A stretch of 48,703 nt of DNA from an uncultured Bacteroidales bacterium (GTDB lineage Bacteria; Bacteroidota; Bacteroidia; Bacteroidales; UBA932), in NCBI GenBank assembly GCA_944326265.1, contig CALVDE010000009.1, positions 1 to 48,703 of the forward strand, read 5' to 3'. Of the stretch, positions 8,527 through 19,841 are shown in pieces. Numbering within the stretch: the first letter of the stretch is position 1; every line of letters begins with the position of its first letter. Position numbers and translations under genes: made by a program. The notes beneath the pieces were generated by a model. It did not search any database. It saw only the letters and a program-made list of their open reading frames with translations, and was not told the DNA's origin.

Positions 8527-9168
8527 TTAGTCCACGAACTGAATCTTCGAGGCATCGCGGTCCTTTGCGGCAGGACTCTCGGCAGGATAGCCGAATCCGA
8601 TGCAGTAAAGCAGCTCATAGCCCTCGGAGAAGCCCAGACGCTTCAGATAATCAGCGGCCTCAGGCGATTTCATGAATCTTACCGGTCCGCCTAAGCAGCA
8701 TGAGCCGATACCCATGGACCAGGCCGAGAGGATCATGTTCTCTCCGAGCAGTCCGCAGTCGATGGGCGACATGTCGTAGGAGGGGTCGTGGGCGATGAAT
8801 ACCACGGTAGGCGCATTGCGGAACATATTCTTGAACGAAGGGTCCTCGGCTGCGCGGGGATTGGCCTTGACAAAGAGCTCGGTCACTCCGTCGATGAACT
8901 CGGGGGAGTCCACCACGCGGATCTCCCAGGACTGGCGGTTCTGTCCGTTGGGCGCGTTGATACCGCACTCGAGAATCGTCTTCATGGTGTCGCGTCCCAC
9001 AGCCACGGGCTGATACTGACGCACACTACGGCGGGTCATAATATTCTCAATCACAATGTCGGAGACACTCTTTTCGGAAGCAGTGCTCCCGGTCCCGGAA
9101 CCATTCCCGCAGGATGTCAGGGCCACAGCGCAGACTAAGGCCGCGGCAGATATTCTAAAAAGTTTCAT
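8527..9168 (-). CDS. Lipoprotein nitroreductase-family FMN oxidoreductase
   Basis: The start at MKLFRIS gives a lipoprotein signal peptide with lipobox LTSC at about residue 18, so the product is probably anchored in the envelope. The nitroreductase fold follows: MTRRSVRQYQ (FMN-phosphate contact), CGINAPNGQNRQSWEIRVV, then a LGENMILSAWSMGIGSCCLGG stretch and a C-terminal CIGFGYP. Such enzymes reduce nitro groups, flavins, quinones or enones with NAD(P)H; an extracytoplasmic location leaves the electron donor open. It follows the cysteate-synthase-like gene by 26 bases. Linkage to the Hdr cluster upstream suggests an electron-transfer role, which is inference. Confidence 0.75.
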   Translation of the reverse strand: MKLFRISAAALVCAVALTSCGNGSGTGSTASEKSVSDIVIENIMTRRSVRQYQPVAVGRDTMKTILECGINAPNGQNRQSWEIRVVDSPEFIDGVTELFVKANPRAAEDPSFKNMFRNAPTVVFIAHDPSYDMSPIDCGLLGENMILSAWSMGIGSCCLGGPVRFMKSPEAADYLKRLGFSEGYELLYCIGFGYPAESPAAKDRDASKIQFVD

Positions 9169-9194
9169 AACCGGTTTATACTTAAAATTAAACA

Positions 9195-10487
9195 CTAAGC
9201 AAACAGTTTCTCTATCTCCCGCACGATCCGGTCCTTGTCCTCCGAGGGAGAGATGACCAGCGAGGGCTTGAGCCAGTGCACCTTGCAGTCCTTCTTGAAG
9301 TGCTGCTCGCCACCGCCTGTGATATTGAGCATTATCACGTCGTCGCGGCCCACGGCACCGGCCTTCACGGCCTGCTCCAGACCGGCCAGCGCGGCACCCG
9401 AAGCGGAGTAGATGTCAACTCCCTCCAGCTCCTTGAACATGGCGGCGCAATGGCGGATCTCGGCGTTGGTCACGGCGCACACATCTCCATGAGTATCGCA
9501 CAGGCAGTCGTACACTCCTCCGGCGAGCGAATAGGGCGGGCGTCTGTTGGAGAGCACCTTGGCATCGATCATCGCGGCCTTCTGACGGGCCTCGTCGTCA
9601 TCGAAGGGCAGCAGATCCCTCTGACCGGCCTTCCATGCGTCGTACATCGGCAGGAAAGGCACGTTCTGCACCGTATGCAGCTTCATCTGAGCCGTACCGA
9701 AGCGGCCGTCCTCCAGCAGACGAAGATTGGCCTCACGGGCCGCAATGGCTCCTGTGCCGCTGCCTATGGCCTGGAAGTATGCGTCGGGTATCCGGCCGAT
9801 TTCCACAGTGGCCGAGAGTACGGTCGTACCCATGCCGTCGCGGCGGGCCACATTCTTCGCGCCTCCCTCGTCGATGAACATTCCCGAGCTGCAGGCAGCC
9901 TGCGACAGGGCGATGGCGTCGAAATAGTCGCTGCCTTTGGGAGCGCAGACGAGCCTGACGCAGTCCTTGATGGGCTTCTCGAACCAGAGAGCGTCGATAT
10001 TGTCCTCAGGCACGCAGAGCAGCAGGGGGATGTCGTTCTCCGAGCAGACCTTGGCGAAGGCCCTGGCCGTATTTCCGGCGGAAGCCACCGTCAGTATCTG
10101 CCTGCAGTCCTTGGGCAGACGGCCGCATACGGAATAGGCCTCGGTCTCCTTGAACGAGCAGGTCTTCATCAGTGCCCCGCGCTCAGGCCAGTAGCCGGAA
10201 AATGCAATATAAAGGTTGCCCAGACCGAGGTGACGGGCCAGTCCCTCGCTCCTGTATGTCACGGTGGTGGCTGAGTCCTGCAGCAGGCGGTGTACCGGCA
10301 GCCAGTCGGCGAAGCGGTAGAATCCCCAGTTGCTGCCCTTGACGTCTATCTGCTTCTTCTGATAGACCGTGCGCACCAGCGAGGGCTTAGGCGATTCGGG
10401 GTCAGCCAGCATCCAGCCGCTGTCCGGAAATATCCGTCCGGTAGCCACATTCATCAGTGAGTACACTGTAGGAGTAAAATTCTTCAT
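9195..10487 (-). CDS. Cysteate synthase-like PLP enzyme (threonine synthase superfamily)
   Basis: This 430-residue fold-II PLP enzyme carries stretches I recognise from archaeal cysteate synthase rather than ordinary threonine synthase: NLYIAFSGYWPERGA, TCSFKETEAY with the PLP Lys at 113, SAGNTARAFA, GGAKNVARRDGMGTTVLSA, QAIGSGTGAIAA and VLSNRRPPYS. Cysteate synthase makes L-cysteate from O-phosphoserine and sulfite, in methanogens for coenzyme M. In Bacteroidetes cysteate is the head-group precursor of capnine-type sulfonolipids, so that is the likely fate here. The N-terminus lacks the zinc-finger-like cysteines of some archaeal forms. It lies 24 bases after the Hdr membrane fusion gene. 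Threonine synthase remains the main alternative. Confidence 0.72.
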   Translation of the reverse strand: MKNFTPTVYSLMNVATGRIFPDSGWMLADPESPKPSLVRTVYQKKQIDVKGSNWGFYRFADWLPVHRLLQDSATTVTYRSEGLARHLGLGNLYIAFSGYWPERGALMKTCSFKETEAYSVCGRLPKDCRQILTVASAGNTARAFAKVCSENDIPLLLCVPEDNIDALWFEKPIKDCVRLVCAPKGSDYFDAIALSQAACSSGMFIDEGGAKNVARRDGMGTTVLSATVEIGRIPDAYFQAIGSGTGAIAAREANLRLLEDGRFGTAQMKLHTVQNVPFLPMYDAWKAGQRDLLPFDDDEARQKAAMIDAKVLSNRRPPYSLAGGVYDCLCDTHGDVCAVTNAEIRHCAAMFKELEGVDIYSASGAALAGLEQAVKAGAVGRDDVIMLNITGGGEQHFKKDCKVHWLKPSLVISPSEDKDRIVREIEKLFA

Positions 10488-10511
10488 GGCGTGTATATCG
10501 TTAAGTTGTTA

Positions 10512-12323
10512 TTAATTCATATTCTGAGCCACTACCTCGGCGAAATCGCTCACCTTATTAGGCGAATAGGGGGAGAATGTCTTCAGGCACAGGGGGCAGG
10601 CGGTGACAATCCTCTCGGGCGAGGCGTACATCAGGTTGTCCAGGGCCTTCAGGGTAATGTCCTTGCGGTCCTCATAGGACAATGTCAGGGAGCCCAGCGA
10701 CCCTCCGCAGCAGATGCTCTCATCGTGGTGCTTCTCCGCCTCCACGAGCTCTCCGGCCGCGCTCAGCACCCTCCGGGGCTGACGGTACACCTTGCAGCCG
10801 CGTCCCAGCTCGCAGGGGTCGTGGTAAACAATCTTCTCTCCCGAGTTCCTGAGGGTTATCCGGCCGAGCCGCACAAGCTCGTCGAAGTATTCGGTATAAT
10901 GCACGATGCGGATGCCCTTGAGGTCGTAGTTCTCGCGGAAGACCTTGTAGCAGATCGGGCAGGAGAGCAGCAGGGTAGTGGCTCCGCTCTGCCGTATCAG
11001 CTCGGTGTTGCGCCGGATCATTTCCTGCGCCCGTTCATCTCTTCCGGCCAGTATCAGGGGCCGTCCGCAGCATATACCGCCGTCACGGTCCATGAAGCTC
11101 CAGTCCACTCCGGCATGGTCCAGTACGGCCGCTACAGCCTTGGAAATGACGGGGGTGAGCTGGGTCATGCAGCCGGCGTAGTAGAGGACTTTCTCCTTGG
11201 AGTTCTCCACGCCCTCAGGCAGGCTGTAGGAGGTAAAATAGCTGTAGTCCGCAGGGGCGGGAACGGCCCTGAGTCCTCTCAGGCTCTGCTTGATGTTGCA
11301 GGAGTCCACGCCTACGGGGCAGACGGCGACGCACTTGCCGCACATCAGGCATTTGTCCGCGCTCTCCTCGCAGCGGGCCCAGTTGCGGCGACGCAGCAGA
11401 CGGTTGAAATATACCGTGGCGAAGCGCAGGTTCTTCTTCTGGCCCATCATCGGACATGCGTCAATGCACATTCCGCAGTTGGAGCAGGAGTATATCTGGG
11501 CGATGGAGTAGCCTTTGCGGGGATGGGAGACCTTGATGCCGGCATTGCGCAGCACTATCAGGAAGGCCTCCGTGGGGATGTGCATGTACCGGGTGAAGGG
11601 CAGCAGCACGAAGAAGGTGCCGAGGAGGGTGGAATAGGCCCACCAGGTCGGCAGGATGTGGTAGGTATTGGTCAGGAAGTTGCTGAACAGCCAGTACATC
11701 GGGCGGGTGAGGAAGCTGCCTCCGGCGATACCGGCGGTGAAGCTCTCGGCGAGGAGCCTGACGGGGAAAATGGCCCACAGGCAGTACATGGCCAGGCGGT
11801 CCGGTATCTGGTTCCTGGTGGTCCTGCGCATGCCGAACATCATCGAGCGGATGCGCTTGAACATGGCCAGGAACACTCCGCTGAGCACCACGAGCAGGAA
11901 GAAGTCCATCAGGAAGAAGAAGAACGAGCCCTTGAGGGTGTGGTCGGTCTCCATAACGAAGAACCTGAAGAACACGGGGTAGTAGAATGTCGAGAGACGG
12001 TCAGGCACGAATAGCCAGGTCTCGATATGTCCCAGGACTATCAGCATGAACCATCCGAAGGCTATGCTCGAGTGCATGTAGCCCAAGAGGGGCTTTCGCT
12101 TCCATATCTTGGTATGCAGGAGGACGTCGCAGATGATGTCCTTGAGATTGATGATCCAGAGTCTGGGATTGATCAGGGAGAGGAAGAACTTCTTTCGGTC
12201 CGCGGCCGGCAGCTGTACGATGACCCGGATGATCCCTATGACGAGATAGGTAATGATGAAGATCATGCCTATCACGAATGGGAGGACGAAATCGTTGTAT
12301 CCTGATATGAACCTGTCTTTCAC
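10512..12323 (-). CDS. Membrane-bound Hdr-like electron-transfer protein (cytochrome b/HdrE + ferredoxin + HdrD fusion)
   Basis: The 603-residue protein has three parts. Residues 1-250 hold about five transmembrane helices with His residues (YMHSS, LGHIETW, ETDHT) like NarI/DsrM/HdrE cytochromes b. Residues 280-335 hold two 4Fe-4S motifs, C280-C283-C286-C290 and C325-C328-C331-C335. Residues 385-579 hold two complete CCG domains (C385, C418-C419, C455, C458; and C504, C538-C539, C576, C579), as in HdrD/DsrK. This predicts electron exchange between (mena)quinone and a noncubane Fe-S disulfide-type site facing the cytoplasm. Its ATG overlaps the stop of the small HdrC-like gene. It is probably the membrane anchor for the HdrABC-like set upstream. 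The substrate is unknown. Confidence 0.8.
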   Translation of the reverse strand: MKDRFISGYNDFVLPFVIGMIFIITYLVIGIIRVIVQLPAADRKKFFLSLINPRLWIINLKDIICDVLLHTKIWKRKPLLGYMHSSIAFGWFMLIVLGHIETWLFVPDRLSTFYYPVFFRFFVMETDHTLKGSFFFFLMDFFLLVVLSGVFLAMFKRIRSMMFGMRRTTRNQIPDRLAMYCLWAIFPVRLLAESFTAGIAGGSFLTRPMYWLFSNFLTNTYHILPTWWAYSTLLGTFFVLLPFTRYMHIPTEAFLIVLRNAGIKVSHPRKGYSIAQIYSCSNCGMCIDACPMMGQKKNLRFATVYFNRLLRRRNWARCEESADKCLMCGKCVAVCPVGVDSCNIKQSLRGLRAVPAPADYSYFTSYSLPEGVENSKEKVLYYAGCMTQLTPVISKAVAAVLDHAGVDWSFMDRDGGICCGRPLILAGRDERAQEMIRRNTELIRQSGATTLLLSCPICYKVFRENYDLKGIRIVHYTEYFDELVRLGRITLRNSGEKIVYHDPCELGRGCKVYRQPRRVLSAAGELVEAEKHHDESICCGGSLGSLTLSYEDRKDITLKALDNLMYASPERIVTACPLCLKTFSPYSPNKVSDFAEVVAQNMN

Positions 12324-12649
12324 TTCTTTTGGTAGATTTTAGTTACACTTAGTATCAGATGCCTGGTGTTGATGCCGCGGGGGCAGACTATCAGGCATTT
12401 GCCGCAGAGCATACAGTGGGAGACCATCCTTAGGGCCTCGTCCTCCCGGCCTCGTCCGAGCAGCAGGATCACCCTCCTCAGGTTCATGTCGCTGTGTCCG
12501 GCCGTGGGGCAGGAGGCCGCGCATGAACCGCAGGCCATGCACTTGAGCACGTCCGGCTCCTCGCGGGCAAGTTCCTCGAATTTAGTCCTGTCGAACTTGT
12601 CCAGATTGATGGCGGAACTGGGTGATATGCCGTATCCGAAGTCTATCAT
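12320..12649 (-). CDS. Small HdrC-like 2x[4Fe-4S] protein
   Basis: The 109-residue protein carries two cysteine motifs, C37-C40-C43-C47-P and C79-C82-C85-C89-P, the HdrC arrangement that passes electrons between the flavin subunit and the CCG subunit. Its ATG overlaps the HdrA-like stop and its stop overlaps the start of the membrane fusion (ATGA at both ends), so the three are tightly coupled. The start at MIDFGYG was chosen for that overlap; the frame extending to 12733 is HdrA shadow. It is the second HdrC-like protein in the cluster and is shorter than the first. Confidence 0.8.
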   Translation of the reverse strand: MIDFGYGISPSSAINLDKFDRTKFEELAREEPDVLKCMACGSCAASCPTAGHSDMNLRRVILLLGRGREDEALRMVSHCMLCGKCLIVCPRGINTRHLILSVTKIYQKK

Positions 12650-13671
12650 TGCTCCTGGAGGTATTCGTGAATACTTGTAGCGGCGGCCCTGGCCTCTGCC
12701 ATGGTCTCTGGCAGGGTCTTGGGCCCGGTGCATGCTCCGGCATAGAACACTCCCGTGCAGTATGATGCCTGGGCGGCCGTGAGGGAGTCCTTGGGCTTGA
12801 GGAAACCGTCCTCCATGGTAGAGAGCGCGAGGGTACGCGCAATGGGATCGACGGCCCTGTTGTGGGACATTCCGGCCATCAGCACCAGCAGGTCGAGAGT
12901 GACCCTGAGCGGCTTGCCGGAGAGGGTGTCTTCGGCCTTGACGAAGAGATGCCCGTCCTTGTCCTCGGAGACCTCCGAGACACGGCCCCGGACGAAGATC
13001 ACGCCGTATTTCTTCTGGGCCTCGAGATACATGTCCTCGTATCCGCGGCCGAACATTCTCAGGTCCATGTAGAAGCAGTAGACCACCGCATCGGGAAACT
13101 TCTCTTTGATCTCGCAGGCCTGCTTTACCGCAGTAGCGCAGCAGACCTTGGAGCAGTAGCGGTTGCCCACCTTCTCGTCGCGGGAGCCCACGCAGTGCAC
13201 GAAGCCTATGCGGCGGGGATTGTCGACGGCGGGCACCGGTATACCGGAGAACCAGTCCTCCAGGTCCGCATTAGTGATTACCCTGTCATAGATGCCGTAA
13301 CCGTATTCCTCCTTCTTGGATGCGTTGAAAAGGGTGAAACCGGTGGTCAGCAGCAGGGCATCGGCCAGGACTGAGAGACCGTTGGAGAGGATGACATTGT
13401 AGCCCCTCTCGAGTTTATTGACCTGAGTCACCTCTGTAGCAGTGAACCACTTGATCCGTCCCATAGAGGCCGTCAGCTGACTCAGGACATCCTCCGCAGG
13501 TGTTCCGTAGGGGAAGAGCCTGTCCCAGCGGCACAGATGTCCACCCAGACGGCCATCCCTCTCCACGAGGAATACGGTATAGCCCATTGCGTCCAGAGCG
13601 CGGGATGCCTCTATTCCGGCCGGTCCTCCGCCGATTACCACTATATTGCGCTGTTGATTGCTTATTTCCAT
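12646..13671 (-). CDS. HdrA-like FAD-dependent oxidoreductase (QmoA-sized)
   Basis: The 341-residue protein begins with the FAD dinucleotide-binding motif VVIGGGPAGIEASRAL (residues 11-26), and the acidic end of the beta-alpha-beta unit is FLVERDGRLGG. The HdrA hallmark, C160-VGSRDEK followed by C173, C177 and C178, binds a 4Fe-4S cluster. AGACTGPKTLPETM near the C-terminus is the second FAD contact. It is shorter than methanogen HdrA (about 650) and near QmoA size, lacking extra ferredoxin domains. It probably splits or relays electrons between the HdrC/HdrB-like partners and a soluble donor. It lies 9 bases after the HdrB-like gene. Confidence 0.82.
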   Translation of the reverse strand: MEISNQQRNIVVIGGGPAGIEASRALDAMGYTVFLVERDGRLGGHLCRWDRLFPYGTPAEDVLSQLTASMGRIKWFTATEVTQVNKLERGYNVILSNGLSVLADALLLTTGFTLFNASKKEEYGYGIYDRVITNADLEDWFSGIPVPAVDNPRRIGFVHCVGSRDEKVGNRYCSKVCCATAVKQACEIKEKFPDAVVYCFYMDLRMFGRGYEDMYLEAQKKYGVIFVRGRVSEVSEDKDGHLFVKAEDTLSGKPLRVTLDLLVLMAGMSHNRAVDPIARTLALSTMEDGFLKPKDSLTAAQASYCTGVFYAGACTGPKTLPETMAEARAAATSIHEYLQEQ

Positions 13672-13680
13672 ATATGAAGA

Positions 13681-14754
13681 TTAGAATATTCTGATATTGG
13701 CAGGGCTGGCGGGGACTCCAAGGTCCTTGCCGCCCGGGCCCTTGTATTTTGCAGACTTGTCGTACTGCACACCCATTTTGTCCAGAAGCGGCTCGACCGC
13801 CACCTGATGCATCTGCAGGCCAAGATCCCATGGGTCGTAGCCCATGACCAGCGCGGCCACCTCCTCTGAGGATAGCACGGGGATGCCGTAGCCGGGGGTG
13901 TCGCCGTAGGTCTTGCCGGTGGTCTCGGCGATGACGTACTGCCAGCGGTCCAGGAAGTAGTTGCAGCCCGGGCAGTTGGTGATGATCAGGTCGGGATGGA
14001 AGGGTTCCATAGACTCGAACTTCTTATAGGTGTTGGTCAGCGAGTAGCCTCTGTTGGCCTTGACCAGGTACTGACGGAAACCGAAGCCGCAGCAGTGCCT
14101 CCGCTCGGGATAGTCCACCACGCTGCCGCCCAGGGCCTCCACCAGTCCGGCCAGAACGCGGGGATACTCGGCTCCGCCCACTGACTTGGAGGGAAAAATC
14201 TTGGAATAATGGCAGCCGATGTGCTCCACCACTTTCAGGGGCTCTCCGCTATACACGTTGATCAGCGGATATTTGGCCTGCTCGGAGATCAGAAAGCGGT
14301 AGTGGTACATAATGTCGCTGGAGTGCATCAGAAAGTCCGGCTTGGTGAATTCCCGCTTGCAGGCCTTCCACAGCAGCTCGTGTATCTTCTCCTCGATCTC
14401 GGGATGCTCCTCCCAGGTCTGGAGTATCTCGCTGTGCAGACCGAAGGAGGTCACGCACGATACCACGAAATTCCTGTAACCGGCCTGGTTCATCAGGGAA
14501 AACTGGCGGGCGATGATGGTCATGGAGGTCTCCTCGGGGGTGGTGTCGCTGTGGTAGGCTATGCCGCCGCAGGTGGTGTGGAGGGGATCCTCGTAGAAGT
14601 CCTTGCCGAAGCGGTTGCGCACTATGTCCAGAAAAGCCTGCTCGGCACCCGGATTGAAGTTCTGGCGGATGCAGCTGCGGGCGTAGAAATACTTGTCATC
14701 GGGTATCTCTTTCTGGAACTCGGACCATATTTTTTTCTTTCCTTCGTAATTCAT
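13681..14754 (-). CDS. HdrB-like CCG-domain protein with degenerate first CCG domain
   Basis: The 357-residue protein has a complete second CCG domain (GCH at 181, CCGFG at 221-225, CPGC at 261-264), the type of site that holds the noncubane 4Fe-4S cluster where HdrB reduces disulfides. The first half aligns with a CCG domain but keeps single cysteines only (C28, TCGG at 61-64, SC at 99-100), so it may bind a different cluster or none. HdrB normally works with HdrC and HdrA, both adjacent here (6 and 9 bases away). The last ~60 residues (Gly/Pro/Lys-rich tail) are beyond the family core. The substrate is not evident. Confidence 0.8.
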   Translation of the reverse strand: MNYEGKKKIWSEFQKEIPDDKYFYARSCIRQNFNPGAEQAFLDIVRNRFGKDFYEDPLHTTCGGIAYHSDTTPEETSMTIIARQFSLMNQAGYRNFVVSCVTSFGLHSEILQTWEEHPEIEEKIHELLWKACKREFTKPDFLMHSSDIMYHYRFLISEQAKYPLINVYSGEPLKVVEHIGCHYSKIFPSKSVGGAEYPRVLAGLVEALGGSVVDYPERRHCCGFGFRQYLVKANRGYSLTNTYKKFESMEPFHPDLIITNCPGCNYFLDRWQYVIAETTGKTYGDTPGYGIPVLSSEEVAALVMGYDPWDLGLQMHQVAVEPLLDKMGVQYDKSAKYKGPGGKDLGVPASPANIRIF

Positions 14755-14760
14755 GCGGTA

Positions 14761-15465
14761 CTACTGATTCTGTTGGTTAAGGTGCTCACCATGAGTCTCA
14801 TTGAACACTTCGTTGAAATACTCTTCCTCGCTCAGTCCCATCTCCTGAGCTTTCTTGCGCGAGAGGTCCTTAATCTTCTCGACCCGGGCCGAGCCGCCTG
14901 TCACGTCGAATATCTTCTGCAGGTCGTCAAGGGATTCGCGGGCAATCTTGCGCAGGGGACCCGGGCCGCTCTTTCCGTAGTTGGCACCCACGCGGTCGTA
15001 CACGTCCTGCAGATGGTCCTCGATCCATTTGCCCACCGTCCCGTACTCAGGGTGGGAGGCGTACTTGAAGGTCTCGGGATGAACGCAGTAGCCGTAATTG
15101 AGGACATTGCCGCAGAGTACCTTGGCCAGAGCATACTGCTGCCGGCCTTTCTCGGACTCCACGAAGTAGCCCAGTTCAACGGATAGGGTGCGCAGGGCGA
15201 TGATGACCTGCCCGGGTGCATTGGTCCTGGGACAGCGGGTCACGCAGGACATGCACTCACCGCAGTACCATATCGTATCGCTCTTGAGTAACTTGATGAT
15301 CTCCTCGTCGTCCTGGGTCTGGACGATATTGACGATGTTCTTGGGGTTGTAGCGGTAGAATTCGGCAGCCGGGCACACAGCGGTGCAGGTCCCGCAGTTG
15401 ATGCAGGCCTTCAGTCCCTCTTGGAGCCGGACGTCGCTCATCAGCCGTTCGTATATCTTACCCAT
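14761..15465 (-). CDS. HdrC-like 2x[4Fe-4S] protein
   Basis: The 234-residue protein has cysteine motifs C21-C24-C27-C31-P and C68-C71-C74-C78-P, spaced as in HdrC. It then has a long helical C-terminal half with a charged coiled-coil-like end (KIKDLSRKKAQEMGLSEEEY). It would carry electrons between the HdrA- and HdrB-like subunits. It begins 12 bases after carB and ends 6 bases before the HdrB-like gene. The carB-to-hdr junction has no visible promoter, suggesting the Hdr genes may be read through from carAB or from a promoter inside carB. Confidence 0.82.
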   Translation of the reverse strand: MGKIYERLMSDVRLQEGLKACINCGTCTAVCPAAEFYRYNPKNIVNIVQTQDDEEIIKLLKSDTIWYCGECMSCVTRCPRTNAPGQVIIALRTLSVELGYFVESEKGRQQYALAKVLCGNVLNYGYCVHPETFKYASHPEYGTVGKWIEDHLQDVYDRVGANYGKSGPGPLRKIARESLDDLQKIFDVTGGSARVEKIKDLSRKKAQEMGLSEEEYFNEVFNETHGEHLNQQNQ

Positions 15466-15477
15466 AATAATTGCGGT

Positions 15478-18400
15478 CTATCTGTATTCGTCCCAGGACT
15501 TGATCTGGATATTGTCGAGGGGCATGTTGCAGAATGCCGTGATGAAAGCCGATGCAAGCCTGGTGTTGGTTATAATCGGGATGTTGAAGTCCACGGCGGC
15601 GCGGCGGATGCGGTAGCCGTTGTCCAGTTCCTCCTTGGTGAGATTCTTAGGGATATTGACCACCAGGTCTATCTTGCGCTCGTGAAGCATCTCCAGGGCC
15701 TGAGGCTCTCCGGTTTCCGACGGCCAGTACACCAAAGTGGCAGGGACTCCGTTGTCCACCAGGAACTTGTAGCTTCCGCCCGTGGCAAATATAGAGTAAT
15801 TGTGCTTGGCCAGCAGCCTGCAGGCACCCAGGAGCTCGACTTTCTGCTTGGCATCTCCTGAGGATACCAGAATATTCTTGCCGGGCACGGTATAGCCTAC
15901 TGAGAGCATGGCCTTGAGCACAGCCTCGTTGGTGTCGTCTCCGATGCAGCCCACTTCTCCGGTGGAGGCCATGTCCACTCCGAGGACGGGGTCGGCCTTC
16001 TGCAGACGGGAGAATGAGAACTGGGAGGCCTTCACGCCCACGTAGTCAAGGTCGAACGCACTCTTTTCAGGAGGAGTGACCTTCTCTCCGGTCATGACCT
16101 TGGTGGCCAGCTCGATAAGGTTGATCTTAAGCACCTTGGACACGAAAGGGAAACTTCTCGAGGCCCTGAGGTTGCACTCGATGACCTTGATGTCGTTTTC
16201 CTTGGCCAGGAACTGGATGTTGAAGGGGCCCGAGATCTTCAGGGCCTCGGCTATCTTGCGGGCTATCTTCTTTATCCTGCGGGCGGTCTCCACGTACAGC
16301 TTCTGAGGCGGGAACTGAATGGTCGCATCGCCCGAGTGCACGCCCGCGAACTCGATGTGCTCCGAGATTGCGTAGGCTATGACGGTTCCGTGGTCGGCCA
16401 CTGCGTCGAACTCTATCTCCTTGGCGTGCTGGATAAATTCCGATACGACAACAGGGTGTTTCTTAGAAACTTCCGCCGCCAGTTTCAGGAACTGCTCGAG
16501 CTCGGTATCGTTGGAGCATACGTTCATCGCCGCACCCGAGAGCACGTAGGAGGGACGCACCAGGACGGGGAAGCCCACGTCGCGGATGAAGCTGTGGATG
16601 TCGTTCATTGAGGTCAGCTCCCTCCAGCGGGGCTGGTCTATGCCGAGACGGTCGAGCATGGCCGAGAAACGGTTGCGGTCCTCGGCGTTGTCGATGCTGT
16701 CTGCGGTGGTGCCTAAGATGGGCACTTTGGCTGCGTCGAGACGGGTGGCCAGGTTGTTGGGAATCTGTCCGCCCATGGATATGATGACTCCGTGCGGCTC
16801 CTCCAGGTCACAGATGTCGAGCACCCTCTCGTAGGTGAGCTCGTCGAAGTAGAGACGGTCGCACATATCGTAGTCGGTGGATACTGTCTCGGGGTTGTAG
16901 TTGATCATGATGCCCCTCCAGCCGCTCTTGCGGATGGTCTGCAGGGCATTGACGCTGCACCAGTCGAACTCCACGGAGCTGCCTATGCGGTAGGCACCCG
17001 AACCGAGCACGACAATCGACTTGCCGTCATGCTCATAGACTATGTCAGATGCAGTACCGTTGTAGGTCAGATAGAGGTAGTTGGTCTGGGCGGGGAACTC
17101 GGCTGCGAGAGTGTCGATCTGCTTGACTACGGGCAGCACTCCGAGCTTCTTGCGGTACTCGCGCACCTTTATGACCATCTCGTCTGTGTCGATGCGGTCC
17201 TTGAGGATGTGGCGTCCGATCTGGAAGTCGGAGAAGCCCTGGCGCTTGGCCTGTCGCAGCAGGGGCTCGCCCAGTTCTTCGAGGGAGCTAAGGGCGGAGA
17301 GTTCTGCGGCAGTGTTGATGATGTTCATCAGCTTGTCGATGAACCAGCGGTCTATCTTGGTGAGTTCGTGTATCTTCTCGGGGGTGTAGCCGTGAGTCAG
17401 GGCCTTGGATATGACGAAGATGCGGTTGTCGGTGGGCTCGCGGAGGGCCTTGTCGATGTTCTCGATGGGGATCTCCTTGTTGCCGGTGAAGCCGTGGGCT
17501 CCCTGTCCGATCATTCTCAGACCCTTCTGCAGGGCCTCCTCGAAGGTGCGGCCGATGGCCATCACCTCGCCGACGCTCTTCATGCTGCTGCCGATCTCGC
17601 GGGATACGCCGTGGAACTTGGAAAGGTCCCAGCGGGGAATCTTGCAGACCACGTAGTCCAGGGCGGGCTCGAAGAAGGCCGGGGTAGTCTTGGTAATGGA
17701 GTTCTTCAGCTCGAACAGGCCGTAGCCCAGACCGAGCTTGGCGGCCACGAAGGCGAGGGGATAACCCGTAGCCTTGGAGGCCAGGGCCGAGGAGCGGCTC
17801 AGACGGGCGTTGACCTCGATGACGCGGTAGTCCTCGGAGTTGGGGTCGAAGGCGAACTGTACGTTGCACTCACCGACGATGCCCACGTGACGGACGATGC
17901 GTATCGAGAGCTCGCGGAGCAGGTTGTACTCATGGTTGGTCAGGGTCTGGGACGGAGCGACCACGATACTCTCGCCGGTATGGATTCCGAGCGGGTCGAA
18001 GTTCTCCATGTTGCAGACCGTAATGCAGTTGTCGTAGCGGTCGCGCACCACCTCGTATTCTATCTCCTTCCACCCCTTGAGGGACTTCTCCACCAGCACT
18101 TGAGGTGAGTAGGAGAAGGCTTTCTCTCCCAGCTTGATAAGCTCGTCCGGATTGTCGCAGAATCCGCTGCCGAGACCGCCGAGGGCGTAGGCCGCGCGAA
18201 GAATTACCGGATAGCCGAGCTCGGAGGCTGCGGCGAGGGCATCCTCGATATTGCTGACCGCATGGCTCTTTATGGACTTAACATTGATCTCATCGAGCCT
18301 CTTGACGAAGAGCTCGCGGTCCTCGGTATCCATGATCGCCTGGACGGGGGTGCCGAGCACCTTCAGGTTGTATTTTTCCAGGATTCCCTCCCTGTACAGG

Positions 18401-18699
18401 GCCACTCCGCAGTTCAGCGCGGTCTGACCTCCGAATGCGAGGAGAATGCCCTGGGGCTGCTCCTTTTTGATAACCGCCTCAACGAAGAAGGGTGTCACGG
18501 GGAGGAAATATATCTTGTCGGCTATACCCTCCGATGTCTGGACGGTAGCGATGTTGGGATTGATCAGGATAGTCTCTATGCCTTCCTCGCGCATGGCCTT
18601 GAGGGCCTGGGAGCCGGAGTAGTCGAACTCGCCGGCCTCGCCTATTTTGAGTGCTCCTGAACCTAAGAGCAGGACTTTCTTTATAGTGGTGTCGATCAT
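15478..18699 (-). CDS. carB: Carbamoyl-phosphate synthase large subunit
   Basis: At 1073 residues this is the usual length. It has two duplicated ATP-grasp halves: the first with ALGGLGSGFC and the second with RPSYVLSGAAMNVC, each followed by ENARLSRSSA-type or CNLRASRSFPF metal/ATP stretches. It ends with an MGS-like allosteric domain (KHNYSIFATGGSYKFL). It makes carbamoyl phosphate from bicarbonate, ATP and ammonia channelled from CarA, for pyrimidines and arginine. It begins 3 bases after carA and continues closely into the Hdr-like genes. A 438-residue opposite-strand frame inside it is coding-bias shadow. Confidence 0.97.
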   Translation of the reverse strand: MIDTTIKKVLLLGSGALKIGEAGEFDYSGSQALKAMREEGIETILINPNIATVQTSEGIADKIYFLPVTPFFVEAVIKKEQPQGILLAFGGQTALNCGVALYREGILEKYNLKVLGTPVQAIMDTEDRELFVKRLDEINVKSIKSHAVSNIEDALAAASELGYPVILRAAYALGGLGSGFCDNPDELIKLGEKAFSYSPQVLVEKSLKGWKEIEYEVVRDRYDNCITVCNMENFDPLGIHTGESIVVAPSQTLTNHEYNLLRELSIRIVRHVGIVGECNVQFAFDPNSEDYRVIEVNARLSRSSALASKATGYPLAFVAAKLGLGYGLFELKNSITKTTPAFFEPALDYVVCKIPRWDLSKFHGVSREIGSSMKSVGEVMAIGRTFEEALQKGLRMIGQGAHGFTGNKEIPIENIDKALREPTDNRIFVISKALTHGYTPEKIHELTKIDRWFIDKLMNIINTAAELSALSSLEELGEPLLRQAKRQGFSDFQIGRHILKDRIDTDEMVIKVREYRKKLGVLPVVKQIDTLAAEFPAQTNYLYLTYNGTASDIVYEHDGKSIVVLGSGAYRIGSSVEFDWCSVNALQTIRKSGWRGIMINYNPETVSTDYDMCDRLYFDELTYERVLDICDLEEPHGVIISMGGQIPNNLATRLDAAKVPILGTTADSIDNAEDRNRFSAMLDRLGIDQPRWRELTSMNDIHSFIRDVGFPVLVRPSYVLSGAAMNVCSNDTELEQFLKLAAEVSKKHPVVVSEFIQHAKEIEFDAVADHGTVIAYAISEHIEFAGVHSGDATIQFPPQKLYVETARRIKKIARKIAEALKISGPFNIQFLAKENDIKVIECNLRASRSFPFVSKVLKINLIELATKVMTGEKVTPPEKSAFDLDYVGVKASQFSFSRLQKADPVLGVDMASTGEVGCIGDDTNEAVLKAMLSVGYTVPGKNILVSSGDAKQKVELLGACRLLAKHNYSIFATGGSYKFLVDNGVPATLVYWPSETGEPQALEMLHERKIDLVVNIPKNLTKEELDNGYRIRRAAVDFNIPIITNTRLASAFITAFCNMPLDNIQIKSWDEYR

Positions 18700-18702
18700 G
18701 GT

Positions 18703-19773
18703 CTACAGCATTTTAATGAATTTGTCAAAGAGGAATTCGGTGTCGGTCGGACCGCTGGAAGCCTCCGGATGGAACTGTACGGAGAAGAAACGGCCGCTCT
18801 TGTGCCGCAGGCCCTCGTTGGTGCCGTCGTTCATATTGACGAAAAGGGGCTCCCAGTCAGCGCCGAGGGTGTCTCCGTCCACAGCGTAACCGTGGTTCTG
18901 GGAAGTGACGTAGCAGCGTTCGGTGCCTACGAGGCGGACGGGCTGGTTGTGGCTGCGGTGGCCGTATTTGAGCTTGAAGGTCGAAGCGCCTCCGGCCTTG
19001 GCCAGCAGCTGGTTGCCCATGCAGATACCGAATATCGGCTTCTCAGCTGCCATGGCTTTCTGAATGTTACGGACGGCCTCGCCGCAGTACTCCGGGTTGC
19101 CGGGACCGTTGGAGATGAACAGACCGTCGTACTCCATGGTGTTGAAATCGTAGTCCCAGGGTACGCGGATGACCTCGATGTCACCGGAGCGGAGGAGGCA
19201 GCGGAGGATGTTGTTTTTGACTCCGCAGTCGAGCAGCACTACTTTCTTCCCGGCAGGGTTGCCGTAACGGATCACCTCCTTGCAGCTGACTATGGCCACC
19301 TGGTTTTCCGAGCCCGGGTCGTAAAGTGTCTCCGGTACCTCGAAGCCCTCAGGCACGATGCAGCCGGGCATGGAGCCCTGCTCGCGGAGGATCTTGGTGA
19401 TCTCCCTGGTGTCCACTCCGAAGATGCCGGGGATGCGGTATTCCTTGAGCCACTGATCCAGGCTCTTGACCGCGCTCCAGTGGCTGTACTTGAAGGAGTA
19501 GTCGGAGATGATCAGACCCCGGACGTGGATGCGCTCGGACTCGAAGTTGACGGATATACCGTCGGCCGTCTTCTCTTCAGGAACTCCGTAGTTGCCTACA
19601 AGAGGGTAGGTTACACATAATATCTGACCCGAGTAGGAAGGGTCGGTGAGGGATTCGGGATAGCCGACCATGGCGGTGTTGAAGACCACCTCTCCGTCGG
19701 CACGGCCCTCATAGCCGAAGGAAAATCCTTTGACCGCAAAGTCTTTTCCGAGATGTAATAGTGCTTCTTTCAT
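18703..19773 (-). CDS. carA: Carbamoyl-phosphate synthase small subunit
   Basis: The 356-residue glutaminase subunit has the CarA N-terminal domain and a class-I glutamine amidotransferase domain. The latter has oxyanion SNGPGNPEYC, nucleophile GICMGNQLLA and the catalytic His/Glu pair in VQFHPEASSGP. It supplies ammonia to CarB. The start at MKEALLHL was chosen because it sits 11 bases after the -7 box; the frame extending to 19830 would start upstream of that box. It is the first gene of the long minus-strand run and is divergent from the nfeD-like gene. Confidence 0.96.
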   Translation of the reverse strand: MKEALLHLGKDFAVKGFSFGYEGRADGEVVFNTAMVGYPESLTDPSYSGQILCVTYPLVGNYGVPEEKTADGISVNFESERIHVRGLIISDYSFKYSHWSAVKSLDQWLKEYRIPGIFGVDTREITKILREQGSMPGCIVPEGFEVPETLYDPGSENQVAIVSCKEVIRYGNPAGKKVVLLDCGVKNNILRCLLRSGDIEVIRVPWDYDFNTMEYDGLFISNGPGNPEYCGEAVRNIQKAMAAEKPIFGICMGNQLLAKAGGASTFKLKYGHRSHNQPVRLVGTERCYVTSQNHGYAVDGDTLGADWEPLFVNMNDGTNEGLRHKSGRFFSVQFHPEASSGPTDTEFLFDKFIKML

Positions 19774-19784
19774 ATCTAAGAATG

Positions 19785-19792
19785 CAAAATTA
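19785..19792 (-). promoter_or_regulatory. Bacteroidetes -7 box for carA and the genes behind it
   Basis: On the minus strand it reads TAATTTTG, matching TAnnTTTG, 11 bases before the carA ATG. It is the only clear promoter I see for the closely spaced minus-strand run down to about 7.9 kb; internal promoters within genes cannot be excluded. Confidence 0.55.
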
Positions 19793-19814
19793 GAAAAAAT
19801 TGGCATTTGTGCCT

Positions 19815-19822
19815 TATCTTTG
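19815..19822 (+). promoter_or_regulatory. Bacteroidetes -7 box for the nfeD-like gene
   Basis: TATCTTTG matches TAnnTTTG and ends 19 bases before the ATG at 19842. It and the carA -7 box are 22 bases apart, so the two divergent promoters overlap. Confidence 0.55.
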
Positions 19823-19841
19823 TGGTACAAAAAACCGACAG

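Follow-up and report, generated by a model that had tools for sequence, protein, structure and literature searches.

A membrane-linked, sHdr-like gene block beside cysteate synthase in Bacteroidales, a probable source of sulfite for sulfonolipids

The gene block and the systems it resembles

Sulfite is usually made by CysH, the 3′-phosphoadenosine 5′-phosphosulfate (PAPS) reductase. The sHdr system, named for its relationship to heterodisulfide reductase (Hdr) and found in Hyphomicrobium and others, "releases sulfite as a product" according to the available part of PMC12423496, and the excerpted text of PMC6067878 gives its gene order as hdrC1B1A-hyp-hdrC2B2; with lbpA, these genes form two HdrC/HdrB-type modules around a short HdrA. 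Here we describe a related block of five genes in a window of 48,703 nucleotides (positions 1 to 48,703 of contig CALVDE010000009.1, assembly GCA_944326265.1) from an uncultured Bacteroidales bacterium of the GTDB family UBA932, in which the block is followed by a cysteate synthase gene. We consider it likely that these genes specify a sulfur-oxidising complex, sHdr-like and linked to menaquinone, whose sulfite goes into cysteate and sulfonolipids and which stands in for CysH where sulfate cannot be activated. The connection of the block with the sulfonolipid pathway is well supported; the sulfite-making chemistry is what we infer from the comparisons below.

The first-pass annotation of this DNA named five consecutive genes for HdrC-, HdrB-, HdrA- and small HdrC-like proteins and a membrane fusion protein, with a sulfite-using, pyridoxal phosphate (PLP)-dependent enzyme within 24 bases of them. 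Both statements were confirmed: Pfam and NCBIfam searches recover the kinship of HdrB, HdrC and HdrA (all scores are far under the cut-offs of the methanogen models), the five genes are separated by 6, 9, −4 and −4 bp, and the enzyme gene, 24 bp away, is recognised as cysteate synthase by the TIGR03844 model and the solved structure 9K3C. The six genes are as follows:

14761–15465, minus strand: HdrC1-like protein, 234 amino acids (aa), two [4Fe-4S] clusters (HdrC models at most 85 bits, under cut-off)
13681–14754, minus strand: HdrB-like protein, 357 aa (PF02754 CCG domain; HdrB model 145 bits, cut-off 450)
12646–13671, minus strand: HdrA-like FAD protein, 341 aa, core only (HdrA2 model 254 bits, cut-off 1100)
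12320–12649, minus strand: small HdrC2-like protein, 109 aa, two [4Fe-4S] clusters (8 conserved Cys; overlap with the hdrA stop)
10512–12323, minus strand: membrane fusion protein, 603 aa, with cytochrome-b-like helices, two [4Fe-4S] clusters and two intact HdrD-like CCG motifs (AlphaFold2 model, Foldseek, conservation)
9195–10487, minus strand: cysteate synthase (phosphoserine + sulfite), 430 aa (TIGR03844; 9K3C)

As in sHdr, a short HdrA lacking additional ferredoxin domains is flanked by two HdrC/HdrB-type modules, and sulfite is the proposed product. Only the FAD core of HdrA aligns, the N- and C-terminal ferredoxin domains being absent: residues 9–333 match residues 3–335 of the 349-aa protein 6TJR, which we take to be the sHdr subunit of Hyphomicrobium denitrificans (its PDB title does not say so), in one stretch at 202 bits, whereas the 654-aa methanogen HdrA 5ODC is matched in two stretches only, at a slightly higher 217 bits. 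The gene order runs parallel to the sHdr order C-B-A-(x)-C-B, being C1-B-A-C2-(membrane HdrD) in 39 of 52 loci, with no hyp gene and with a fusion as the last gene. The systems differ in that the second module is fused to a membrane domain; no LbpA gene was recognised and there is no extra GcvH-like gene; and the setting here is biosynthetic rather than energy-yielding. Because LbpA is missing, we rejected sHdr proper as a label. EtfD (EMO; PDB 9OJN), which is presumably the electron transfer flavoprotein (ETF):menaquinone oxidoreductase, has the same fold as the fusion protein, with membrane helices, ferredoxin clusters and two CCG domains, but here the fusion gene shares a gene run with HdrA, HdrB and HdrC. 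The HdrABC and HdrDE enzymes of methanogens have homologous subunits; unlike them, HdrA here is without the ferredoxin domains used for bifurcation, HdrB has one intact CCG motif only, and the soluble and membrane types are combined.

Association with SulA and CysH

Judged by its sequence, the enzyme encoded beside the block is a true cysteate synthase: it scores 459.9 bits against the TIGR03844 equivalog model (cut-off 324.9), and its best solved relative is the cysteate synthase 9K3C (603 bits over residues 1–430, the full length). The SulA gene of the window genome is on a different contig (L264:1435–2694; G, L and f numbers are our handles for genomes, loci and families, f1 being the family of the window). 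The best solved relatives of its product are 7U7H, the SulA of Alistipes finegoldii (PMC9304779), at 607 bits and a cysteate acyltransferase (28EH) at 568, with serine palmitoyltransferase next at 215; the product retains the YAKSLPMP motif's Lys, which we equate with Lys281 on the basis of a primer in PMC9304779. According to the available part of PMC11211663, Alistipes likewise has its ketocapnine reductase genes dispersed, without linkage to cfat and Cys.

Our survey covered an automatically drawn sample of 296 genomes of the order, each at least 95% complete, from 96 families, and none was dropped before the association counts. The fusion gene alone served as marker of the block, and SulA was called with the window genome's own SulA as query at a best E value below 1e-90, the values having a gap between 1e-76 and 1e-98. 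The fusion gene is present in 114 genomes (E 1e-60) of 50 families, SulA in 218, CysH in 178 (E 1e-10; 170 over cut-off) and TIGR03844 in 88 (87 over cut-off). SulA accompanies the fusion gene in 111 of 114 genomes and is found in 107 of 182 without it (odds ratio (OR) 26, p = 1.4e-15). This association is strongest in the 118 genomes that lack CysH, where the fusion gene occurs in 38 of 52 with SulA versus 1 of 66 without (OR 176, p = 4.6e-18). It survives permutation within families (p = 0.001 in the genomes without CysH, from eight informative families, and p = 0.03 in all genomes), and drawing one genome per family from those without CysH gives a median p of 6e-5. Individual families display the pattern: f97 and f125 each have one genome with both genes and four with neither, f127 has four and one, and f147 one and one; f61 is opposite, with a fusion genome lacking SulA plus several SulA genomes lacking the fusion. 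CysH or the fusion is present in 204 of the 218 genomes with SulA versus 13 of the 78 without it. The first-pass annotation had called for a survey of the block against capnine synthesis genes; within this order, the fusion goes with SulA, most of all in genomes lacking CysH.

Cysteate synthase itself is a less sharp marker. Both TIGR03844 and the fusion are present in 45 of the 296 genomes, the synthase only in 43, the fusion only in 69 and neither in 139. Where CysH is present the two are independent (28 genomes with both, 38 with synthase only, 47 with fusion only, 65 with neither; OR 1.02), and where it is absent the fusion is found in 17 of 22 genomes with TIGR03844 versus 22 of 96 without (OR 11.4, p = 3e-6). 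Plain co-occurrence with TIGR03844 is weak and was set aside; the link became clear only after the genomes were split by CysH and SulA was substituted. Of the outcome that the first-pass annotation had named as refuting, a block widespread in species without cysteate synthase or without sulfonolipids, only the narrower half holds: 69 of 114 fusion genomes lack TIGR03844, but 111 of the 114 have SulA. Within f1 (35 genomes, 81–100% complete), 21 genomes have fusion and synthase, four the fusion only, none the synthase only and ten neither; the two genes are side by side by coordinates in all 21, and in the 16 of 20 examined f1 loci that have both, the matches are 15–87 bp apart.

The block is conserved as a unit. 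All five genes are present in 42 of 52 loci with the fusion gene, 39 in the order C1-B-A-C2-fusion and three as C1-C2-fusion-B-A, which argues that the grouping is not chance. Ten loci have fewer block genes, and a contig or stretch end is near in six of these (L141, L144, L145, L165, L273, L284). The genes inserted into the G415 block (L138: a HAD hydrolase, a PNPOx-like protein and an ion channel) and those adjoining it elsewhere were considered and have no common theme.

SulA and the block stand in one gene run in five families: G419 and G410 (f1), G466 (f97), G516 (f147), G688 (f81), and G496 and G570 (f127). In G419 (L135) the run is VOC-SulA-SDR-C1-B-A-C2-fusion-cysteate synthase, nine genes in 9.4 kb on one strand. 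G410 (L137), one of the four f1 genomes with the fusion only, has SulA-PALP-SDR-VOC-C1-B-A-C2-fusion, where PALP is a threonine-synthase-like PLP gene. In the four families beyond f1 (L271, L269, L268, L166/L272), SulA, a PALP enzyme and the block are likewise in one run, so that a threonine-synthase-like enzyme replaces cysteate synthase in these four families and one f1 genome. Such PALP (or "capA?") genes score under every NCBIfam cut-off, and we call them CapA-type cysteate synthases solely from their place beside SulA and from the accessible portion of PMC10191378. SulA in L135 and L137 is hidden by longer overlapping open reading frames (ORFs) and was located by DNA-level tblastn. In G663 and G702 (f127) the coordinates place some 5 kb between SulA and the fusion. 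L268, L269, L271 and L272 were chosen because their coordinates or gene content had already drawn attention; among the 40 loci in batches picked before SulA was considered, three have SulA, with about 0.24 expected by chance if genomes are 3.3 Mb long. Overall, linkage is found in at least 7 of 111 genomes, a lower bound, as SulA positions are available for only some of the genomes.

CysH keeps the same company. It adjoins SulA in four CysH-bearing genomes without the fusion (L276, L277, L278, L279), with the PALP gene directly next in L276 and L279, after one gene in L278 and after three small to mid-sized ORFs in L277. CysH would supply the same product as we propose for the block, but it is an unrelated protein, acts reductively and needs activated sulfate. 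The gene runs and the co-occurrence of fusion and SulA together support the tie to cysteate and sulfonolipid synthesis that the first-pass annotation had suggested. A glyoxalase/VOC-domain protein of about 356 aa also recurs beside SulA or the SDR gene, with either the Hdr block or CysH, and is a candidate sulfonolipid gene:

L166:12168–13238: VOC protein
L135:13999–15078: VOC protein
L278:9077–10198: VOC protein
L279:10206–11261: VOC protein

Genomes with SulA and without CysH seem to lack the means to activate sulfate. ATP sulfurylase (PF01747) was found in none of the 52, and a PF01507 protein was absent in 33 of the 38 that carry the fusion, window genome included; the other five (G442, G460, G520, G587, G531) have some PF01507 match. 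The first-pass remark that no apr genes were in sight was extended by a search of the whole window genome with no PF01747 or PF01507 match at E 1e-5, a search that did not include AprAB, Dsr or hydrogenases.

Subunits and the proposed route to sulfite

Conservation was counted only over sequences within set length ranges and coverage. At least 95% of 40 HdrC1 sequences share the eight cluster Cys and C127. HdrB, which is matched to solved HdrB relatives at E 3e-33, has an intact C-terminal CCG motif, with C181, C221, C222, C261 and C264 kept in at least 95% of 39 sequences. HdrA has conserved C160, C173, C177 and C178 (47 sequences) and HdrC2 eight conserved Cys (41 sequences). At least 95% of 51 fusion sequences retain eight Cys of ferredoxin type, ten of the CCG motifs, and H70, H84 and H248.

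The label "cytochrome b" had been given to the N-terminal part of the fusion, and a Pfam search finds no match in its first 270 residues. The AlphaFold2 model of the protein (pLDDT 86.9, pTM 0.81) has as its top Foldseek match EtfD of Mycobacterium smegmatis (9OJN; E 6e-20, TM 0.73, root-mean-square deviation 7.0), which extends along the whole protein (737 alignment columns, 17% identity); the next match reaches only 8e-8. This match makes it likely that the N-terminal part is a membrane domain with putative heme binding, and the EtfD-like fold offers a path to menaquinone.

In the scheme we propose, HdrB, HdrC and the FAD protein HdrA would oxidise reduced sulfur (sulfide or persulfide) to sulfite, and the electrons would pass from the HdrC clusters through the HdrD half of the fusion and its membrane domain to menaquinone. 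Cysteate synthase would then combine sulfite with O-phosphoserine to form L-cysteate, SulA would condense L-cysteate with acyl-acyl carrier protein, and reduction of the product by the SDR would yield the sulfonolipid base, capnine. In this way the complex would stand in for CysH in Bacteroidales unable to activate sulfate. Potentials of about −116 mV for sulfite/sulfide and −74 mV for menaquinone make oxidation of sulfide to sulfite by menaquinone feasible. The first-pass annotation left the direction open (a thiol, disulfide or sulfite made or consumed), and the way in which the block and CysH take each other's place speaks for sulfite being made. Assembly of the five proteins into a single complex, along with its substrate, direction of flow and acceptor, is inferred from these comparisons. 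The chances seem to us evenly balanced that anaerobic Bacteroidales possess in this block a new Hdr complex, menaquinone-respiring and independent of lipoate, whose biosynthetic task is the full oxidation of sulfide or persulfide to sulfite.

The block is flanked on the same strand by:

18703–19830, minus strand: carA (TIGR01368 above cut-off)
15478–18699, minus strand: carB (TIGR01369 above cut-off), 12 bp upstream of HdrC1
8527–9195, minus strand: nitroreductase-family protein (PF00881, 94 bits)

The minus-strand order is carA, carB, hdrC1, hdrB, hdrA, hdrC2, fusion, cysteate synthase, nitroreductase-family gene and a DUF486 gene, with successive gaps of 3, 12, 6, 9, −4, −4, 24, −1 and 24 bp. 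The start of hdrC2 is probably not the ORF start at 12733 but the ATG at 12649, which gives a 4-bp overlap with the hdrA stop; the nitroreductase-family gene and the stop of the cysteate synthase gene share 1 bp. That protein has a lipoprotein-like start (AVALTSCGN, read by eye), and the same gene is present in other Coprenecus loci. The carA and carB genes probably share a transcript with the block and are not thought to be part of its function. In other Bacteroidales (L210, L215, L217) carA, carB and cysteate synthase are directly adjacent without the Hdr block, so that in Coprenecus the block separates genes that adjoin each other elsewhere.

The window's cysteate synthase is 99–100% identical to that of Candidatus Coprenecus metagenome-assembled genomes (MAGs; L169, L171, L173), which assigns the window to this genus or a very close relative. 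Muribaculum sp. An289 (L184) also has the block together with cysteate synthase. A Coprenecus pullistercoris MAG has two cysteate synthases on different contigs (L175, L179; 96% and 92% identical to the window's), and G397 likewise has two copies, by strain mixture or duplication. Family f31 (L033–L040), outside the class of the window, has cysteate synthases above the TIGR03844 cut-off that are 38–40% identical to it; none of the window's Hdr or other genes is near those loci.

Competing explanations and biological meaning

Several observations weigh against sulfite formation by the block in place of CysH. The CCG motif in its usual form has five Cys, and the N-terminal motif of HdrB is reduced to C28, C62 and C100, with S103 in place of the last Cys; these three are kept in 15 of 15 aligned sequences. 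A GcvH-like (GCV_H) gene occurs once per genome in 43 of 45 genomes searched, with or without the block, and is absent in the other two, the fusion genomes G683 and G442, which indicates that a dedicated LbpA is not part of the system. In L130, L139, L150 and L274 more than 4 kb upstream is available and parts of the block are missing or elsewhere. None of SulA, PALP, cysteate synthase, CysH, SDR and VOC is in the available stretch of 23 of the 32 loci outside f1, and none of the sulfonolipid genes sought is near the block in 3 of 20 f1 loci. Three fusion genomes (G446, G641, G661) have no SulA, and where CysH is present the fusion occurs in 73 of 166 SulA genomes versus 2 of 12 without SulA, which is not significant (p = 0.075). 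In SulA genomes the fusion and CysH tend to exclude each other (OR 0.29), a tendency that vanishes on within-family shuffling. Overall, the link of the fusion with TIGR03844 is weak (OR 2.1, p = 0.004), and within families it is not significant (p = 0.59 in genomes without CysH). Finally, among the 218 SulA genomes 73 have fusion and CysH, 93 CysH alone and 14 neither, so this is not a simple swap; in some species the block must have a use beyond making up for missing CysH, perhaps at times when sulfide is available.

Of those 14, two (G444 and G515) encode a PF01507 protein of CysD size and may thus have lost their cysH to assembly gaps. Twelve have neither CysH, fusion nor clear CysD (G474, G656, G477, G558, G705, G669, G579, G428, G649, G653, G459, G607); G649 has a short weak PF01507 match only. 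The genes adjoining SulA in G705 (L291) are housekeeping-like (YfiO, Rpb6/omega, CoaBC, DUF4835, RecN/SMC, an SDR), and three of the four adjoining cysteate synthase in G579 (L296) are ExbB/ExbD; neither neighbourhood accounts for its exception. In L130, L150 and L274 the fusion and C2 are kept and B, C1 or A was not found within 20 kb; these would be split or reduced complexes.

The strongest alternative, which we regard as unlikely, is that the complex serves sulfonolipid metabolism without making sulfite, either as a redox module for another step (thiol or persulfide balance, or lipid modification, for example) or by detoxifying surplus sulfite or sulfide beside a pathway that uses sulfite. 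The 73 genomes with both CysH and the fusion agree with it, as do the recurring VOC-domain protein and, in the available part of PMC11129491, the sulfide detoxification suggested for Hdr genes of Black Sea isolates, some of the same genera having capnine lipids. However, a redox helper is not expected to follow an absent sulfite source, and the fusion follows SulA most closely exactly where CysH is missing, while CysH adjoins SulA where the fusion is missing.

That the block serves respiration in anaerobic Bacteroidales at large, has nothing to do with sulfonolipids and is beside cysteate synthase in this family by accident, we find improbable: its spread through 50 of 96 families and the 23 loci without sulfonolipid genes nearby would fit, but not the difference in SulA between genomes with and without the fusion, its persistence within families in genomes without CysH, or the runs with SulA in five families. 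Qmo complexes likewise combine HdrA-like and HdrC/membrane subunits, and HdrC1 weakly matches the QmoC model (50 bits, cut-off 300), but a Qmo-like passage of menaquinol electrons to adenosine 5′-phosphosulfate (APS) reductase, making sulfite reductively, is very improbable and was rejected, since ATP sulfurylase is missing from all 52 SulA genomes without CysH, and CysD/CysH-type proteins from 33 of the 38 of these with the fusion, which leaves no known route to APS (the search did not include AprAB).

Sulfite formation by an sHdr-like complex thus remains our preferred explanation. Searches of the open-licence literature turned up no paper linking Hdr genes with sulfonolipid or cysteate synthesis (subscription papers could be missed); in the available part of PMC11129491, Hdr genes and capnine lipids of the Black Sea isolates are reported separately. 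The term "sulfite" has no occurrence in the main text of PMC9304779, PMC11211663 or PMC10191378: the pathway from cysteate onward is known, and the source of sulfite is not addressed in these three papers. Sulfonolipids of gut Bacteroidota are tied to host inflammation (PMC9304779, accessible portion). If our explanation is true, the block would be a third route to sulfite for membrane lipids, beside CysH and sulfonate breakdown, and would give a genetic handle on sulfonolipid supply as well as a simpler, lipoate-free system for studying Hdr-like sulfite-forming chemistry. It would also place a sulfur-oxidising enzyme in gut commensals usually seen as fermenters and fumarate respirers, which would then oxidise sulfide anaerobically, with a bearing on sulfide levels in the gut.

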